64,000 nt of DNA, from positions 3,658,001-3,722,000 of the forward strand of contig NZ_CP039371.1 of the NCBI RefSeq assembly GCF_005080685.1, written 5' to 3'. This DNA comes from Pseudomonas putida (lineage in GTDB: Bacteria > Pseudomonadota > Gammaproteobacteria > Pseudomonadales > Pseudomonadaceae). Below the pieces are notes generated by a model, which had not been told where the DNA came from, made no database searches, and saw only the letters and a program-made list of their open reading frames with translations. The position numbers and the translations under genes are program-made. Of this stretch, positions 14,879-21,612 are shown piece by piece (position 1 is the stretch's first letter; the number at the start of each line of letters is the position of its first letter).

Positions 14879-15301
14879 ATGGGGGGCAAGATGCTTGCTA
14901 ACTGGGGCTTGGTGGTGCCGCTGGCGGGGGCACTTTTGATACTTGCAGGGTGTGCCGGGCCTATGCCCAAAGCCAGCCCTGACGAGGCCTGGGTAAGTTT
15001 ACGGGAAGAGCCGGCAACGACGTTGATGGCAGAAACGCTCGATGGCAAACGGCTGGACGATGGGCGCTTCTTCGAGGTGCCCGCGGGCAAGCACAGGCTG
15101 GGAGCGACCCTGTTCGTCGAGGGCGACGGTGATAGTAATGGCGAGATCTGCAACGCCTCGGTCGCCTATGACACGTTCAAGGCGGGTGGGCACTACACAT
15201 TGGTGGAAAGTAGCTTAGGGCAGACTTATACATTGACCCTTTACAATAAAGCCAATAAAGAACTTGCGCAGACTTCGGAAACTAGTTGCATGGCGGGGTA
15301 A
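14879..15301 (+). CDS. Small lipoprotein
   Basis: The 140-residue product has a lipoprotein signal peptide with lipobox LAGC (LVVPLAGALLILAGCAGP), then a compact domain of about 110 residues containing LDDGRFFEVPAGKHRLGATLFVEG and CNASVAYDTFKAGGHYTLVES. The PAGKHRL-type segment resembles small bacterial surface proteins with a PEGA-like or beta-sandwich fold, but I do not recognise a named family. Starts at 14879 or 14891 are possible. Its last 31 bases form the beginning of the 360-bp unit present three times downstream, so its 3' end exists in three copies. Confidence 0.65.
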   Translation: MGGKMLANWGLVVPLAGALLILAGCAGPMPKASPDEAWVSLREEPATTLMAETLDGKRLDDGRFFEVPAGKHRLGATLFVEGDGDSNGEICNASVAYDTFKAGGHYTLVESSLGQTYTLTLYNKANKELAQTSETSCMAG

Positions 15302-16350
15302 TCGTTTTTCTGCTAACCCTGAAAGTTCTTTCGCCATGACGGTGCCATCCAACGTAAAAACCGGACCGGCCTCTTCGCGGGCAAGCCCCCTGTCCCAGAA
15401 AAAACATAACTCATTGATTTAGCGGGGATCTGTGGGAGCGGGCTTGTCCCGCGAACACCGGCGAAGCCGGTGCCATCCACCGCGTCGCCCCATTCGCGGG
15501 ACAAGTCGGGGCGCCGAACCGCCGCTCCCACAGTGGCCACAGTTCTCTGCGCGACAGCGCAGCCCAGAAGGGCTGGGTGATCTCCCACAGGACCAACGCA
15601 GCACATGCAGGTTGCGATATCCCTGTGGGAGACTTCGGAAACTAGTTGCATGGCGGGATAATCGTTTTTCTGCTAACCCTGAAAGTTCTTTCGCCATGAC
15701 GGTGCCATCCAACGTAAAAACCGGACCGGCCTCTTCGCGGGCAAGCCCCCTGTCATAGAAAAAACATAACTCATTGATTTAGCGGGGATCTGTGGGAGCG
15801 GGCTTGTCCCGCGAACACCGGCGAAGCCGGTGCCATCCACCGCGTCGCCCCATTCGCGGGACAAGTCGGGGCGCCGAACCGCCGCTCCCACAGTGGCCAC
15901 AGTTCTCTGCGCGACAGCGCAGCCCAGAAGGGCTGGGTGATCTCCCACAGGATCAACGCAGCACATGCAGGCGGCGATATCCCTGTGGGAGACTTCGGAA
16001 ACTAGTTGCATGGCGGGGTAATCGTTTTTCTGCTAACCCTGAAAGTTCTTTCGCCATGACGGTGCCATCCAACGTAAAAACAGGACCGGCCTCTTCGCGG
16101 GCAAGCCCCCTGTCATAGAAAAAACATAACTCATTGATTTAGCGGGGATCTGTGGGAGCGGGCTTGTCCCGCGAACACCGGCGAAGCCGGTGCCATCCAC
16201 CGCGTCGCCCCATTCGCGGGACAAGTCGGGGCGCCGAACCGCCGCTCCCACAGTGGCCACAGTTCTCTGCGCGACAGCGCAGCCCAGAAGGGCTGGGTGA
16301 TCTCCCACAGGATCAACGCAGCACATGCAGGCGGCGATATCCCTGTGGGA
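15271..16350. repeat. Three tandem copies of a 360-bp REP-containing unit
   Basis: Copies occupy 15271-15630, 15631-15990 and 15991-16350 with exact 360-base spacing and only a few substitutions, for example ccc/cat near 15393/15753/16113. Each begins with the last 31 bases of the lipoprotein gene (gacttcggaaactagttgc) and contains a long REP-type hairpin: tgtgggagcgggcttgtcccgcgaa pairs with ttcgcgggacaagtcg and ccgctcccaca. Copies 2 and 3 share variants absent from copy 1. After copy 3 the REP continues uninterrupted (16350-16380), giving the ancestral right flank. The 1.1-kb stretch has no credible gene and separates two convergent transcripts. Confidence 0.95.
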
Positions 16351-16390
16351 GCGGGCTTGCCCGCGAAGAGGACACCGCGGCACGAACGGG

Positions 16391-17005
16391 TCAGGACGTC
16401 AGCGCCTGCTGGCGCACTGGGGCTTCATAGCGATGCGGCTGCTGCCAGGCCAAGGTTTGCTGGACACCCACCGCGGCATCCAGCACCTTCTGCGTCCAGC
16501 TTTCGTCCTTCGGGCACACCACGACCACGCGGAAACCGTGATCGTCGCCTTCGATGCGCACGCCCTCGGAGTCATCGACGTGCAGGTCGATATCGAACGC
16601 CGGAGGGTATTTGGACGGCCCCTTCGCAAAGCCCTGCTCGTTCAGCACATGCTGGTGCCGATCGCTGTTGACCACGCCATCCACACGAATGCCGTACAGC
16701 ATCAACCAGCGCCGGATGTACGCCGGGGTGCGCCCGGACGAGGTATAGATCCAGACACTGCAGCCCTGGCGGCGCAGGTCGCGAATCAGCGAACGGGTAC
16801 CGACCCGCAGCGGCTCGCCCAGCCAACGGTGGACGAACTCGGGCAGCTTGCTGTCTTCAGCGGCGCTGTGCTCCGGCAAGCAGGCGAGCGTGTCGTCGAT
16901 ATCGAACGAAATGCGCATTCTCGGCCGCGTGAACGCGCGCCCCAAGGTTTGCCACGCCTGCTGCGTGGAAGGTCGCCAGTGATTGAGCATCGGATAGCGG
17001 GCCAT
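16391..17005 (-). CDS. HAD-superfamily phosphatase-like protein
   Basis: A 204-residue protein with all HAD motifs: DIDDT at 35-39 (nucleophile D35, acid/base D37), motif II YTSSGR at 87-92, lysines at 128 and 132 as motif III candidates, and acidic motif IV DLHVDDS at 140-146. A small hydrolase removing phosphate or nucleotide phosphate is expected. The start codon overlaps the Fic-like gene stop as ATGA, so the two are translationally coupled. The pair lies at the end of the pstSCAB operon where phoU is usual. ATG 16918, just before the DIDDT motif, is a less likely alternative start. Confidence 0.75.
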   Translation of the reverse strand: MARYPMLNHWRPSTQQAWQTLGRAFTRPRMRISFDIDDTLACLPEHSAAEDSKLPEFVHRWLGEPLRVGTRSLIRDLRRQGCSVWIYTSSGRTPAYIRRWLMLYGIRVDGVVNSDRHQHVLNEQGFAKGPSKYPPAFDIDLHVDDSEGVRIEGDDHGFRVVVVCPKDESWTQKVLDAAVGVQQTLAWQQPHRYEAPVRQQALTS

Positions 17006-17703
17006 CAGTGGCTCCCCTGGTAGATAGGTTGTGGTGTGCCACTGAGGAAGAACGCCTTCGGTTCAGGCGCCTGCGCTTCGAGGAATGCCGCATATTTCTT
17101 CTTGATCTTGGGCAATTCGTACAAGGCTTTGACGCCATGCTTGGCGGAATTTCGAATGACCGAGGACGGATTGAAGTAACCCTCGGCGTTGTCCAGCGAG
17201 AGTACGAACGGTGGCAGCCCTGCTCTCATCAACAGGTAGCTGACGATCAACGAGCCGGTGCGATTGTTGCCTTCGATGAACAGCTGCGGTTTGCTCAGGA
17301 TTCGCACATACACCCCCGCCGCGCGCTTCCACACCGAATCACTGCGGTACGAGCAGTACCAGTTGTACAGGTCCTTGATGCCGCCTTCGACGTTGTTGAA
17401 GAAGTGCGCCTCGGTGGCGGCCAGGTGCTGGGCGAACTCCTGCCGGCGTGCCGGGTCGCGACCGCACAGCACCGTGGCATTGAGTTCGAGCATCAGGTTC
17501 ACCTGCTGCAGCTCGAAAAGATCGATGCCCCGCGCCACGTAGTCGTCTATCAGGGCATAGCCCTCGACCACATTCAACAGCACCTCGTCGGTGAACGGAT
17601 CACGCGGTTCGGTGAAGTGCCGGCTGAGTTCGGCGAAACGGCTCTGCACCTCACGCAGTGCGCGTTCTACCGCAGACAGATCAAGACGACGCGTTACAGG
17701 CAT
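17005..17703 (-). CDS. Fic/DOC-family protein with altered catalytic motif
   Basis: The 232-residue protein has a Fic core at about residues 95-165. The Fic motif HPFx(D/E)GNxRxxR appears as QLFIEGNNRTGS at 140-151: E144, G145, N146, R148 and G150 are kept, but the catalytic His is Gln140 and the last Arg is Ser151. Canonical AMPylation would need that His, so the protein either uses another chemistry or has lost activity. It begins 52 bases after pstB in the same direction, and its stop overlaps the HAD gene start. Conservation of the nucleotide-binding residues argues against random decay. Confidence 0.75.
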   Translation of the reverse strand: MPVTRRLDLSAVERALREVQSRFAELSRHFTEPRDPFTDEVLLNVVEGYALIDDYVARGIDLFELQQVNLMLELNATVLCGRDPARRQEFAQHLAATEAHFFNNVEGGIKDLYNWYCSYRSDSVWKRAAGVYVRILSKPQLFIEGNNRTGSLIVSYLLMRAGLPPFVLSLDNAEGYFNPSSVIRNSAKHGVKALYELPKIKKKYAAFLEAQAPEPKAFFLSGTPQPIYQGSH

Positions 17704-17755
17704 TGGCGATCCCGAAACAAACTGAAAAATAAAACCACCCCGAGCGAGCCACGGC

Positions 17756-18574
17756 TCAGCTGAATTTGCCGCTGATGTAGTCGCTGGTCAGTTGCTCGCG
17801 GGGGTTCTCGAATATCTGCGTGGTCGCGCCCATCTCGACCAAGTAGCCGGTACGGGTCCCCTGGGAAATATCGACCGAGAAGAAGGCAGTGGTGTCGGCG
17901 ACACGGATCGCCTGCTGCATGTTGTGGGTCACCAGGGCGATGGTGTAGTCCTTCTTCAACTCGACCATCAGCTCTTCGACGCGGCGGGTGGCGATGGGGT
18001 CCAAGGCCGAGCATGGCTCGTCGAGCAACAGCACTTCCGGCTCGGTGGCGATGGCGCGGGCAATGCACAGGCGCTGCTGCTGGCCACCGGACAGCGACAG
18101 GCCGCTGACCTTGAGCTTGTCCTTGACTTCATCCCACAGCGCGGCCCCTTGCAGGGCGTGCTTGACGCGATCACCCAGATCGCCCTTGTAGCGGTTCAGG
18201 CGCAGGCCGAAGGCGACGTTGTCGAAGATGCTCATCGAGAACGGGTTCGGCTGCTGGAACACCATGCCGATGTAGCGGCGCACCACCACCGGATCGACGC
18301 CCTTGCCATACACATCCTGGCCCAGGAAGTGCACGTGGCCTTCGAAACGGAAGCCCTTCACCAGGTCGTTCATGCGGTTCAGGCTACGCAGCACGGTACT
18401 CTTGCCGCAGCCCGACGGGCCGATGAAGCCGGTGATCTTGTTCTTCTCGATCGGTACATGGCTGTCACGCACGGCCATGAAGTTGCCGTAGAAAATCTTG
18501 TCCAGCTTGCAGTCCATGACTACAGGTGTTTGGCTGATCATCGGAGCGGCTCGTTGCGCAGTGGATACGTTCAA
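17756..18574 (-). CDS. pstB: Phosphate ABC transporter ATPase PstB
   Basis: A 272-residue ATP-binding subunit of the high-affinity phosphate importer. Walker [10 protein letters not shown] at 52-60, Q-loop [15 protein letters not shown], signature LSGGQQQR, Walker [14 protein letters not shown] and H-loop VTHNMQQA are all present. The [12 protein letters not shown] and [10 protein letters not shown] segments are PstB-like. It follows pstA by 18 bases. It is followed by the Fic-like gene rather than phoU. Confidence 0.93.
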
Positions 18575-18592: not shown

Positions 18593-19486
18593 TTAGTACT
18601 TGGGCTTGCCGAAGATACGGCTGATGACGTTCACCACCAGCACGATCATCACCAGCACCAGCGAGGCCGCCCAGGCGAGCTCCAGCTGGTTGTCGAACGG
18701 CATGCCAGAGAAGTTGTAGATAAGTACGGCAAGCGAGGCCGTGGGGTTCATGACGGCCAGGCTGCCGTCATGGTAGATCCAGTAGTTGCTGAACAGCGCA
18801 GTGAACAGCAGCGGCGCGGTTTCGCCCGCGGCGCGCGCCACGGCCAGCATGACGCCGGTGAGAATTGCCGGCATGCCGGTTGGCAGGACGATCTTCCAGA
18901 TCACCTGGGCGCGGGTGCAGCCCATGCCGTAGGCGGCATCTTTCATGATCTTGGGCACCATCTTCATGGCTTCCTCGGCGGTCAGCACGACGATCGGCAG
19001 CATCAGCACGGCCAGGGCCACGCCACCGGCTGGGGCCGAGTAGGTGCCGGTAGTCATCACCACCAGGGCGTAGGCGAACACACCCGCCAGAATCGATGGC
19101 AGGCCGGTGAGCATCTTGGCAGCGAAGCGCGCGGCGTTGGCCAGCTTGCTGTCGGGGCCAAGTTCGGCCAGGAACACCGCCGCCAGGATACCGACCGGCA
19201 CGGCGATGGCTGCGGCGATGCCGACCATCACGAAGGTGCCGGCCATGGCGTTGCCGAAACCGCCACCCATCTCGAAGCCGGTAGGCGGCAGCTCGGTGAA
19301 CACCTCGAGGCTAAGACGCGCACCGCCGCGAGTGATCAGCATGTACAACACCGAGATCAGCGGCACGCTGGCCAGCAGGGCAACGAGCCACACCATGCTG
19401 GTCAGGACCACGCTGCGCAGGGCTCGCCCTTCGAAGCGGCGCTGCAGGCTCGGCAAGGCGACGCCTGGGGTCGTGAGGTCGGTCAT
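18593..19486 (-). CDS. pstA: Phosphate ABC transporter permease PstA
   Basis: A 297-residue inner-membrane permease with six expected membrane segments and the EAA-type loop (EEAMKMVPKIMKDAAYGMGCTRAQVIWKIVLPTGMP). The N-terminal GGFGNAMAGTFVMVGIAAAIAVPVGILAAVFLAE matches PstA. Its ATG overlaps the pstC stop by one base (TAATG), so they are coupled. Confidence 0.92.
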   Translation of the reverse strand: MTDLTTPGVALPSLQRRFEGRALRSVVLTSMVWLVALLASVPLISVLYMLITRGGARLSLEVFTELPPTGFEMGGGFGNAMAGTFVMVGIAAAIAVPVGILAAVFLAELGPDSKLANAARFAAKMLTGLPSILAGVFAYALVVMTTGTYSAPAGGVALAVLMLPIVVLTAEEAMKMVPKIMKDAAYGMGCTRAQVIWKIVLPTGMPAILTGVMLAVARAAGETAPLLFTALFSNYWIYHDGSLAVMNPTASLAVLIYNFSGMPFDNQLELAWAASLVLVMIVLVVNVISRIFGKPKY

Positions 19487-20451
19487 TATTTGTTACCCCG
19501 CTGGGCGTAGAGCATGATCATCGAGCCAAACACGTTCACCAGCAGGGTGATGAACATCAGTACCAGCGCGGCGTACATGAGAATCTCCACCTCGTTCGGG
19601 CCGGCCTCCGGGAAGTTCAGGGCCAGCAACGCCGCCAGCGTGTTGGCTGGGGCGAACAAGGACAGGGAAATGGTATTGGCGTTGCCCACCAGCATGGCCA
19701 GGGCCATGGTTTCGCCCAGCGCACGGCCGAGGCCCAGCACCAGGGAGCCGAAAATACCGGTGGCAGCCGAGGGCACCATCACCTTGAGAATCGCTTCCCA
19801 GTGGGTGGTACCCATGCCGTAGGCCGCTTGCTTGGTTTTCATCGGTACGCTGGTGAGCGCATCCTGGGAAACGGCGGCGATGGTCGGCAGAATCATGATG
19901 GCGAGCACCAGTGCCGCTGGCAGCAGCCCAGGCCCGCTCAAGGAAGTGCTGAAAAACGGAATCCAGCCCAGCTCGCTGTTGAGCCATGCGGTCAACGGGC
20001 GAATCGCCGGGATCACGACATAGATGCCCCACAGGCCGTAGACCACGCTGGGGATGGCGGCGAGCAGCTCGACGATGGTGCGGAACACTGCAGCCAGCTT
20101 GGCGGGCAGGAAGTCCTGGGTAAGGAAGATGGCCATGCTGACGCCGAAGAAGCCTGCGATCAGCAGCGCGATGAAGGCGCTGTAAAGCGTGCCCCAGATC
20201 GCCGGCAGAATCCCGTATTTACCCTGGTTGACATCCCACACGCTGCCGAACAGCACGTCGAAGCCATGCTTTTCCATACCCGGAAGTGCCTTGCTCCCTA
20301 CTTCGAAGACCAATGCGACGACCAGGGCCAGCACCAGCACCACGCCGATACGTGCAAGCGCACGGAAGGTGCGATCGACCAAAAAGTCCTTGGCCGAGGG
20401 TGGCTGGCACGCTGAGTCGGGGTTATCCGGTATGGCAAAAGGTGTGTTCAT
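19486..20451 (-). CDS. pstC: Phosphate ABC transporter permease PstC
   Basis: A 321-residue permease partner of PstA. It has an N-terminal membrane helix (IGVVLVLALVVALVFEVGSKALPG), the PstC-typical GILPAIWGTLYSAFIALLIAGFFGVSMAIFLTQ, AAIPSVVYGLWGIYVV, and the cytoplasmic loop TKQAAYGMGTTHWEAILKVMVPSAATGI. It starts 73 bases after pstS and overlaps pstA. It lacks the long periplasmic insertion seen in some larger Pseudomonas PstC proteins. Confidence 0.92.
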   Translation of the reverse strand: MNTPFAIPDNPDSACQPPSAKDFLVDRTFRALARIGVVLVLALVVALVFEVGSKALPGMEKHGFDVLFGSVWDVNQGKYGILPAIWGTLYSAFIALLIAGFFGVSMAIFLTQDFLPAKLAAVFRTIVELLAAIPSVVYGLWGIYVVIPAIRPLTAWLNSELGWIPFFSTSLSGPGLLPAALVLAIMILPTIAAVSQDALTSVPMKTKQAAYGMGTTHWEAILKVMVPSAATGIFGSLVLGLGRALGETMALAMLVGNANTISLSLFAPANTLAALLALNFPEAGPNEVEILMYAALVLMFITLLVNVFGSMIMLYAQRGNK

Positions 20452-20524: not shown

Positions 20525-21550
20525 TTACTGGATGTTCTGAGCGGCTTTGCGCACTTCAGCGACAACCGACGGCGGCAGCGGGATGTAACCCATCGAGTCA
20601 GCGATCTTCTGACCTTCGGTCAGGCTGTACTCGACCATTTCACGCATGGCCTTGGCCTTGGCCGGGTTGCCGTTGTCCTTGCGGAAGATCATCCAGGTGT
20701 AGGTGGTGATCGGGTAGGACTTGGCACCATCCGGATCAGGCAGCCAGGCCACCAGGTTTTCCGGCATCTTCACCGCAGCCAGGGCCTCGGCACCGCTCTC
20801 GGCGTTCGGCACCACGTACTGGCCAGCCTTGTTCTGCAACTGGGCGAAGTCGACCTTGGCCAGCTTGGCGAAGCCGTATTCGATGTAGCCGATGGCACCT
20901 GGGGTCTGGCGCACGGTGGCGGTCACGCCATCGTTCTTCGGCGATTTGATGAACTTGTCGGTGGCAGGCCAGTTGACGGTGTTGCCCTCGCCCAGTGCTT
21001 GCTTGAAGGCCGGGTTGATGGTCGACAGGTGCTTGGTGAAGACTGCGGTGGTACCGCTGGAGTCGGCACGCACGACCACGGTGATCGGGGTGTCAGGCAG
21101 TTTCAGGTCCGGGTTGGCGGCGACGATCTGCGGGTCGTTCCATTGGGTGATCTTGCCCAGGAAGATGTTGGAGTACACATCACGTGGCAGTTTCAGACCT
21201 TTCGGGTTACCTGGAAGGTTGTAGGCCAGGACGATCTCGCCGGCAGTCATAGGCAGCAGTTGCACGCCTTCGCCGACCTTGGCGATTTCTTCGTCTTTCA
21301 TGGCCGAGTCACTGGCGGCGAAATCGACGGTCTTGTTCAGGAAGTCCTGAACACCCGCGCCGCTGCCCTTGGACTGGTAGTCGACGGTCACGCCAGCGGT
21401 ATTCTTGCTGAAATCCTTGAACCAGGTGAGGTAGATCGGTGCTGGGAAGCTGGCGCCGGAGCCGGTCAGGCGAACGTTCTCGGCAAAGGCGCCCGAGGCA
21501 CAGAGAGAGACCGAGACGGCGAGTGCAGCAGACTTCATCAGGCGTATCAT
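20525..21550 (-). CDS. pstS: Phosphate ABC transporter periplasmic binding protein PstS
   Basis: The 341-residue periplasmic phosphate receptor has a signal peptide (MKSAALAVSVSLCASGAFA) and the PstS ligand segments LTGSGASFPAPIYLTWF, DYQSKGSGAGVQDF, AASDSAM and VVVRADSSGTTAVF. ATG 21550 is chosen because GGAG lies eight bases upstream. A Pho box stands about 45 bases before the start, so it should be induced by PhoB under phosphate limitation. It is the first gene of pstSCAB-fic-HAD. Confidence 0.94.
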   Translation of the reverse strand: MIRLMKSAALAVSVSLCASGAFAENVRLTGSGASFPAPIYLTWFKDFSKNTAGVTVDYQSKGSGAGVQDFLNKTVDFAASDSAMKDEEIAKVGEGVQLLPMTAGEIVLAYNLPGNPKGLKLPRDVYSNIFLGKITQWNDPQIVAANPDLKLPDTPITVVVRADSSGTTAVFTKHLSTINPAFKQALGEGNTVNWPATDKFIKSPKNDGVTATVRQTPGAIGYIEYGFAKLAKVDFAQLQNKAGQYVVPNAESGAEALAAVKMPENLVAWLPDPDGAKSYPITTYTWMIFRKDNGNPAKAKAMREMVEYSLTEGQKIADSMGYIPLPPSVVAEVRKAAQNIQ

Positions 21551-21594
21551 CGAAAGAGCTCCATGTGTTGGCCGGAGCACTTTGCAATAGCTAT

Positions 21595-21612
21595 GTTACA
21601 GCTGTGTGACGA
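21595..21612 (-). promoter_or_regulatory. Pho box upstream of pstS
   Basis: Read on the minus strand the 18-mer TCGTCACACAGCTGTAAC matches the PhoB consensus CTGTCATAWAWCTGTYAC at most key positions, including the second CTGT and the AC end. It lies 45-62 bases upstream of the pstS ATG. Confidence 0.7.

Follow-up and report, generated by a model that had tools for sequence, protein, structure and literature searches.

Where a classical pstSCAB operon carries phoU, one Pseudomonas phosphate-import operon instead carries a Fic-like gene, and we asked what this gene does there and whether the cell that holds it lacks PhoU. The operon lies in a 64,000-nucleotide stretch (hereafter the window; G000:C1:3658001-3722000) of a 6.61 Mb Pseudomonas genome, and its genes follow one another on the minus strand in the order pstS, pstC, pstA, pstB, the Fic-like gene and a gene for a HAD-fold phosphatase. 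The products of pstS (20525..21580; TIGR00975, 440.6 bits against a cut-off of 205), pstC (permease, 19486..20451; TIGR02138, 305.3 against 196.45), pstA (permease, 18593..19486; TIGR00974, 264.2 against 193.45) and pstB (ATPase, 17756..18574; TIGR00972, 387.4 against 343.2) all score above NCBIfam equivalog cut-offs within this one operon, identifying a PstSCAB importer with its phosphate-binding protein. The pstS reading frame is listed from a GTG, and by eye an ATG at 21550 is the likelier start.

The Fic-like gene (17005..17703, minus strand, 232 aa) begins 52 bases after pstB (gap 17704..17755) in the same direction, exactly as an earlier note on this DNA had stated, and pstB-to-Fic spacing was at most 107 bases across 55 operons (53 Pseudomonas loci, the window and G316). 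The HAD gene (16391..17005, minus strand, 204 aa) overlaps it by a single base (TGATG), not by the ATGA given in that note; among the 49 of these 55 operons in which the junction was measurable, the overlap was one base in 36 and four bases in 9, with a gap in 4. A weak terminator-like hairpin (17759-17740) overlaps the space between pstB and the Fic-like gene. Three terminator-like hits were found in the region against a shuffle mean of 4.2, placing this hairpin within shuffle expectation. We rejected the idea that transcription surely ends after pstB, since the hairpin is no better than expected and the protein PPUBIRD1_3016 (see below) is induced along with PstB1. The genes flanking the window's operon are not conserved across loci, and a Kup-type K+ transporter gene (PF02705, 21806-23854) before pstS is likewise not a conserved neighbour. 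On the other side, a 360-base unit occurs in three tandem copies (15270-16351; 98% matches) that separate the HAD gene from a small lipoprotein-like gene (14879-15301), for which Pfam gave no match; inspected by eye, the unit contains REP-like palindromes and duplicates the terminal part of the lipoprotein-like gene.

We then considered whether the operon responds to phosphate. Upstream of pstS, a Pho-box-like site (21595..21612, minus strand) has 2 mismatches to the degenerate consensus CTGTMAYNNNNCTGTMAY; it is one of two such sites in the 64 kb window, and 16 of 2000 mononucleotide shuffles of its 200-base stretch did as well or better. The stricter CTGTCATNNNNCTGTCAT gave no site at up to 3 mismatches, and the best match upstream of pstS in the 55 operons carried 2 mismatches in 8, 3 in 22, 4 in 20 and 5 in 5. 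The Pho box named in the earlier note is plausible as a degenerate site, although the strict consensus is absent and the upstream matches vary. Published data exist for P. putida BIRD-1. There, low phosphate raised PPUBIRD1_3016, a conserved hypothetical protein, by log2 4.96, and the protein went undetected in a phoBR mutant; its tag adjoins those of pstB1 (3017), pstA1 (3018), pstC1 (3019) and pstS1 (3020) (PMC5082522). Gene order alone would make PPUBIRD1_3016 the Fic-like gene, and the low-phosphate co-expression proposed as a check is to that extent already in print (PMC5082522); the BIRD-1 table there has no protein under the tag expected for HAD (3015). The same source names this operon pst1 and describes it as not present in all Pseudomonas, with pst2 present in all. 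A P. putida KT2440 strain stripped of its Pit transporters could still grow in minimal medium with phosphate as long as either pst operon (PP_2656-PP_2659 or PP_5326-PP_5329) was intact, and deleting the two together abolished that growth (PMC9358898); the Fic-type operon is presumably PP_2656-PP_2659.

The window genome does encode PhoU. A protein with two domains over cut-off lies at G000:C1:6418268-6418834, behind another pstB whose product is 55% identical to the window PstB, and PhoU was found in 16 of 17 other genomes with a Fic-type operon, the exception (G661) being a draft metagenome assembly. With PhoU encoded elsewhere in the genome, the substitution of the Fic-like gene for phoU concerns one operon and not the cell. 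The earlier proposal that the pair replaces phoU therefore stands for the operon, from which phoU is missing and in which the Fic-like gene occupies its place beside a PstB of separate lineage, and falls for the further claim that PhoU function is absent. Two PstBs over the curated cut-off were present in every genome tested (14/14), one copy being Fic-linked in 13 of them; in the fourteenth (G664) a contig end truncates the Fic-linked copy, and the two PstBs counted are both additional to it. The other PstB adjoins PhoU in 14 of 18 genomes (the window genome and the 17 others), an arrangement not seen in G656, G658, G661 and G664. In a tree of 59 PstBs, which sampled 27 hand-picked Fic-linked loci (L096 dropping out because its sequence was too short) and 23 of the 25 other loci, all 26 Fic-linked sequences fell on one side of a single branch (support 100/100; length 1.17), while the 10 PhoU-linked sequences fell on the other side without forming one clade.

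Is the Fic-like gene a stable companion of this Pst lineage? Using PstA as linkage marker, we found the window type (E up to 1e-80) in 38 of 149 Pseudomonas genomes, and the Fic-like gene in the same 38 (its frame split in one, G034). The other 111 had no Fic-like gene except for a remnant in G040, 38 residues with a stop, where PstA is absent. The link between Fic-like gene and PstA in Pseudomonas is far beyond chance. All 30 loci read together, the window included, show pstA, pstB, Fic and HAD on one strand in this order, and in the remaining 8 of the 38 genomes coordinates place Fic and PstA less than 2 kb apart on the same contig. Four PstA-anchored genomes from the class and phylum samples (G405, G316, G921 and G943) all carry the Fic-like gene, bringing the total to 42 of 42. 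PstA matches in the phylum sample (69 of 398 genomes) fall into two groups with a gap between them, the window type in 5 genomes at no less than 93% identity and the other 64 genomes at 37-43%. Elsewhere in the samples the Fic-like family is rare: the order yielded it in 3 of 194 genomes and the class in 2 of 321, counts that include the window's own genome.

A scan of named genomes returned 245 relatives, of which the best 80 were taken as loci, a sample weighted to Pseudomonas (53 loci) with 27 others that include Competibacteraceae, Thiocapsa, Methylocapsa, Defluviicoccus, Nitrosomonas, Propionivibrio and Desulfobacter; one contig labelled Phycisphaerales resembles Competibacter and may be misbinned. 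Among these best 80, pst genes adjoin the Fic-like gene in 79, and in the eightieth (L102) the contig begins about 180 bases before it. The Fic-like gene comes directly after pstB in all 53 Pseudomonas loci and precedes pstS in Desulfobacter. A Thiodictyon plasmid, one record among 72,556 plasmid records, holds the same pst-Fic set without HAD, and viral contigs yielded no close relatives of the Fic-like protein. The earlier note had suggested looking for conserved pairs and their tie to pst genes, and random placement of the Fic/HAD pair relative to pst is rejected by co-inheritance (38/38 Pseudomonas genomes) and adjacency (79/80 loci). A second Pst importer and a His-less Fic-fold accessory protein form a real, conserved partnership. 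Several observations accompany these loci. In loci from other genera, pstB and Fic are often separated by a second pstS-like gene whose identity to window PstS is about 41-49% (for example L047, L048, L061, L071, L107, L111 and L120), and the Thiocapsa and Nitrosomonas operons have a pyruvate kinase barrel-like gene in their vicinity (L107, L111, L116 and L121; PF00224 in L107 and L111). In the remnant genome G040, fragments of Fic and HAD sit side by side with no pst genes (L134), and G097 has a HAD gene with no pst or Fic in the 14 kb read (L133).

What kind of protein is this partner? The Fic-like protein is predicted to adopt a Fic fold, placing it in the Fic/Doc (Fido) superfamily (VIA-align being a second look at the top chains from Foldseek itself). 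Its PF02661 (Fic) score is 17.6 bits against a gathering cut-off of 24, and the PF00702 score of the HAD protein is 15.2 against 26.4; since the Pfam matches of both are sub-gathering, the case for a Fic protein is built on the predicted fold and on profile comparison. Its motif, Q140-L-F-I-E-G-N-N-R-T-G-S151, bears out the earlier description of Gln140 at the catalytic His position, Ser151 at that of the last Arg and a retained E-G-N-x-R-T-G. Fic AMPylators carry Hxxx[DE]GNGRxxR (PMC4454073). Among the 240 homologues listed, the catalytic position is Gln in 237, Glu in 3 and His in none, and a simple decay of a Fic enzyme was rejected, the Gln being kept over wide distances. E144, G145, N146 and R148 (positions 5, 6, 7 and 9) agree with the AMPylator motif in all 64 alignment rows; position 8 is His in 58 and Asn in 6, the window among the latter, and not the AMPylator Gly; no row (0/64) has Arg at position 12. 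With Gln at position 1 in 62 of 64 rows and Lys at position 8 in none (0/64), the family also departs from the motif of Doc clade D2. Three distant matches from the order and class searches (G180, G642 and G562) were set aside as canonical Fic proteins with His, outside the His-less family. In FicD, D367, N369 and R371 (motif positions 5, 7 and 9) hold the diphosphate and R374 (position 12) makes no contact; R374H/C retain ligand binding and R371S does not (PMC12974487).

Outside the motif, Arg34, Asn75, Gly81 and Trp125 are identical in 64 of 64 rows. One idea is that the invariant Arg34 might stand in space for the lost Arg; the Arg34 region lies outside what the profile alignment with class II Fic proteins covered. 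The inhibitory motif (S/T)xxxE(G/N) appeared among the Fic-like rows only as stray, differing matches (5/64; none in the window). Neither the Fic-like nor the HAD protein had a PhoU match (PF01895) listed at E up to 1. A PADLOC match and a Doc-like PHROG match of the Fic-like protein were weak and partial, and a profile match to the phycobilisome linker CpcN (residues 58-106) is a sum of weak repeats.

The HAD protein keeps all four motifs (DxDxT, T, K, DD) on a HAD fold, as had been noted before, its D35, D37, T39, T88, K132, D144 and D145 being identical in 54 of 54 rows. In its model the best fold matches, MDP-1, L-2-haloacid dehalogenase, HDHD2 and Fcp1, are tied. Against solved structures it had no significant sequence match to natural phosphatases, the best hit (4.7e-4) being a designed repeat protein, and the [ST]xxxE[GN] antitoxin motif of a FicTA partner occurs in none of the 54 rows. 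All 38 Pseudomonas genomes that carry the Fic-like gene also carry HAD (the G002 copy having an in-frame stop), and beyond these the genus showed it as a lone copy in G097, a remnant in G040 and a weak match in G080. Across the best 80 of 245 relatives it is present at 67 loci, some misses being contig ends. We then searched ten genomes lacking HAD at the pst-Fic locus; with four positive controls recovered, 8 had none genome-wide, and G664 and G666 had matches on other contigs. The absence of the family from 8 of 10 such genomes means that HAD is a partner in some lineages and not a necessary eraser. The earlier picture of a modifier/eraser pair consequently lacks support as the core unit, with His in 0 of the 240 homologues listed and HAD gone from 8 of 10 genomes. 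Judged by its predicted fold and conserved residues, HAD is an accessory phosphatase retained in some lineages, and where both proteins are present (Pseudomonas, Competibacteraceae, Propionivibrio and Nitrosomonas) it may act with the Fic-like protein.

Outside Pseudomonas, the neighbourhood often includes polyphosphate genes. PPK1, PPK2 or CHAD homologues occurred at 15 of 29 non-Pseudomonas Fic-type loci compared with 1 of 13 other pst loci from the same genome set (4 of these 13 controls having no PhoU match), a count that favours Fic-type loci because the queries were drawn from them (11/25 without the four query-giving loci) and that is not independent, the loci being related and 9 of the 15 Competibacteraceae-like. 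PPK1 lies between Fic and HAD in Competibacteraceae and before pstS in Methylocapsa; PPK2 lies before pstS in Thiocapsa and directly after Fic in Nitrosomonas; PPK1 and PPK2 homologues are both near the operon in Defluviicoccus; and Thiodictyon has a nearby CHAD protein, CHAD being a polyphosphate-binding domain. Position and orientation vary among the loci with PPK1 or PPK2 beside the operon (L048-L051, L054, L055, L057, L058, L060, L061, L071, L107, L111 and L116). In Pseudomonas, PPK2 and pstS are divergently oriented neighbours in 15 of the 53 loci from the best 80 of 245 relatives (for example L067) and, by eye, in 10 of 38 genus-sample genomes, with 2 to 4 PPK2 matches per genome. No polyphosphate neighbour was found in the window, in 38 of 53 Pseudomonas loci or in 14 of 29 others; in the window the K+ transporter gene stands at the PPK2 place before pstS, and the genome's PPK2 matches are far off. 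Given related loci and queries taken from Fic-type loci, we treat the polyphosphate association as a lead.

Taken together, these observations suggest that the operon encodes a second Pst importer from a separate lineage, in which the slot of classical phoU is filled by a gene for a cytoplasmic accessory protein dedicated to this pump. We hold with high confidence that the Fic-like protein is a functional accessory of this Pst system. It would be unlike an ordinary AMPylator, the general-base His appearing as Gln, the position-8 Gly or Lys as His or Asn and the gamma-phosphate Arg gone, while the putative metal-binding Glu and the Asn and Arg expected to hold a diphosphate are kept invariant. 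Such a protein could sense phosphate and energy state by binding a ligand with a diphosphate group, be it ADP, pyrophosphate or the end of a polyphosphate chain, and could on that basis control PstB or the whole importer. The Fic-linked pump might thereby run apart from the PhoU-governed pump, perhaps feeding polyphosphate storage in some lineages. From sequence and predicted fold, a diphosphate-binding regulator appears the likeliest role. That the protein is a ligand-binding, non-AMPylating regulator of the importer we consider a nearly even prospect, the ligand, target and direction of control all being inferred. The fuller joint claim is decidedly more tentative: a Fic fold turned sensor would read diphosphate or polyphosphate and gate a dedicated Pst importer serving polyphosphate storage, and would constitute a further accessory class beside PhoU, PitR and NptA in several proteobacterial groups and Desulfobacteraceae.

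Alternatively, the Fic-like protein may be an active transferase with non-His chemistry, placing AMP, phosphate or another group on PstB, PhoR or another phosphate-response protein, with HAD removing the group where present. Its active-site Glu, Asn and Arg are invariant, the two genes overlap by one base (36) or four bases (9) at 45 of the 49 measurable junctions, and the HAD protein keeps its catalytic residues and has the protein phosphatases Fcp1 and Scp1 among its fold matches, although those matches are tied with many other HADs. Residual or other activity has been argued for His-less Fic/Doc proteins (PMC4454073), so that some catalysis may persist, and the position-8 His (58/64) could be a relocated catalytic residue, though the window has Asn there. 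The loss of the gamma-phosphate Arg, the absence of His from 240 of 240 homologues listed and the genome-wide absence of HAD from 8 of the 10 genomes without it at the locus make a transferase unlikely. Rather unlikely, too, is a primary role in polyphosphate, with the Fic-like protein sensing or binding the polymer or acting on polyphosphate kinases and the operon supplying phosphate for storage. The excess of PPK1, PPK2 and CHAD genes at Fic-type loci (15/29 against 1/13), the divergent PPK2 (15/53 loci; 10/38 genomes) and the placements of PPK1 between Fic and HAD in Competibacteraceae and of PPK2 next after Fic in Nitrosomonas all point this way. Set against them are the loci in which no such neighbour was found (the window, 38 of the 53 from Pseudomonas and 14 of the 29 from elsewhere), the relatedness and query bias of the loci counted (11/25 without query loci; 9/15 Competibacteraceae-like) and the 4 of 13 control loci without PhoU.

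The position of the gene also invites the reading that the Fic-like protein stands in for PhoU, joining the Pst complex to PhoR and helping to shut the Pho response. It occupies the phoU place, coexists with PhoU in a two-importer cell and has a precedent in the separate regulator-importer pairs described within one cell (PMC13170248), yet it has no PhoU sequence match, its listed fold is Fic, and PhoU itself is kept in 16 of 17 genomes tested and in the window's own, which leaves this reading a slim chance. A toxin-antitoxin or mobile-element remnant parked behind pst is barely credible: the Fic/Doc fold and the weak PADLOC and Doc-like PHROG matches are what one would cite for it, but the strict association of the Fic-like gene with a single Pst lineage across the samples, the lack of [ST]xxxE[GN] in 54 of 54 HAD rows and viral contigs without close relatives, with the single plasmid record among 72,556 lying within a pst operon, largely refute a toxin-antitoxin or defence origin. 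Overall, the observation in the earlier note is partly confirmed and its interpretation partly supported, with the diphosphate-binding regulator the role we prefer.

The Fic-type Pst gives bacteria of soil and water a second pump for phosphate uptake, one that may hold a new type of control component: a Pst lineage with a Fic-fold partner in every genome sampled, in which the phosphate-binding residues are kept and the catalytic base is dropped. If the Fic-like protein controls the importer, this would give a role to one group of His-less Fic proteins, a kind noted in 2015 without a function (PMC4454073), would help explain the two Pst systems of many Pseudomonas and may bear on phosphate storage in wastewater-plant organisms. 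A search of open-licence PMC papers found no Fic-Pst link in print, which does not prove absence.

Compared with known systems, the operon shares with classical pstSCAB-phoU the PstSCAB importer and a soluble accessory gene after pstB, and differs from it in lacking PhoU, in a PstB of separate clade and in the second PstB found in 14 of 14 genomes tested. MDP-1, Fcp1 and Scp1 are capless HAD phosphatases, and the modelled window HAD shares their HAD core and catalytic residues. From FICD, Fic-1 and the class II Fic AMPylators, the Fic-like protein differs in its Gln for the catalytic His, its His or Asn for Gly at position 8, the missing position-12 Arg and the lack of a conserved (S/T)xxxE(G/N) inhibitory motif. 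Doc clade D2 (Qx[FY]x[DE][GV]NKR; Khater and Mohanty 2015, PMC4454073) shares the Gln for catalytic His, with no function assigned there, and differs in having Lys at position 8 where the present family has His or Asn; the cited section gives no phosphate-transport link, and the comparison made here is with the published motif of its 45 sequences. Those accessory regulators of phosphate import that are known in bacteria carry a PhoU domain (PMC13170248). PitR and NptA-PhoU likewise place different accessory regulators with different phosphate importer families in one cell, and both are PhoU-domain proteins, whereas the accessory here has a Fic fold (PMC13170248).
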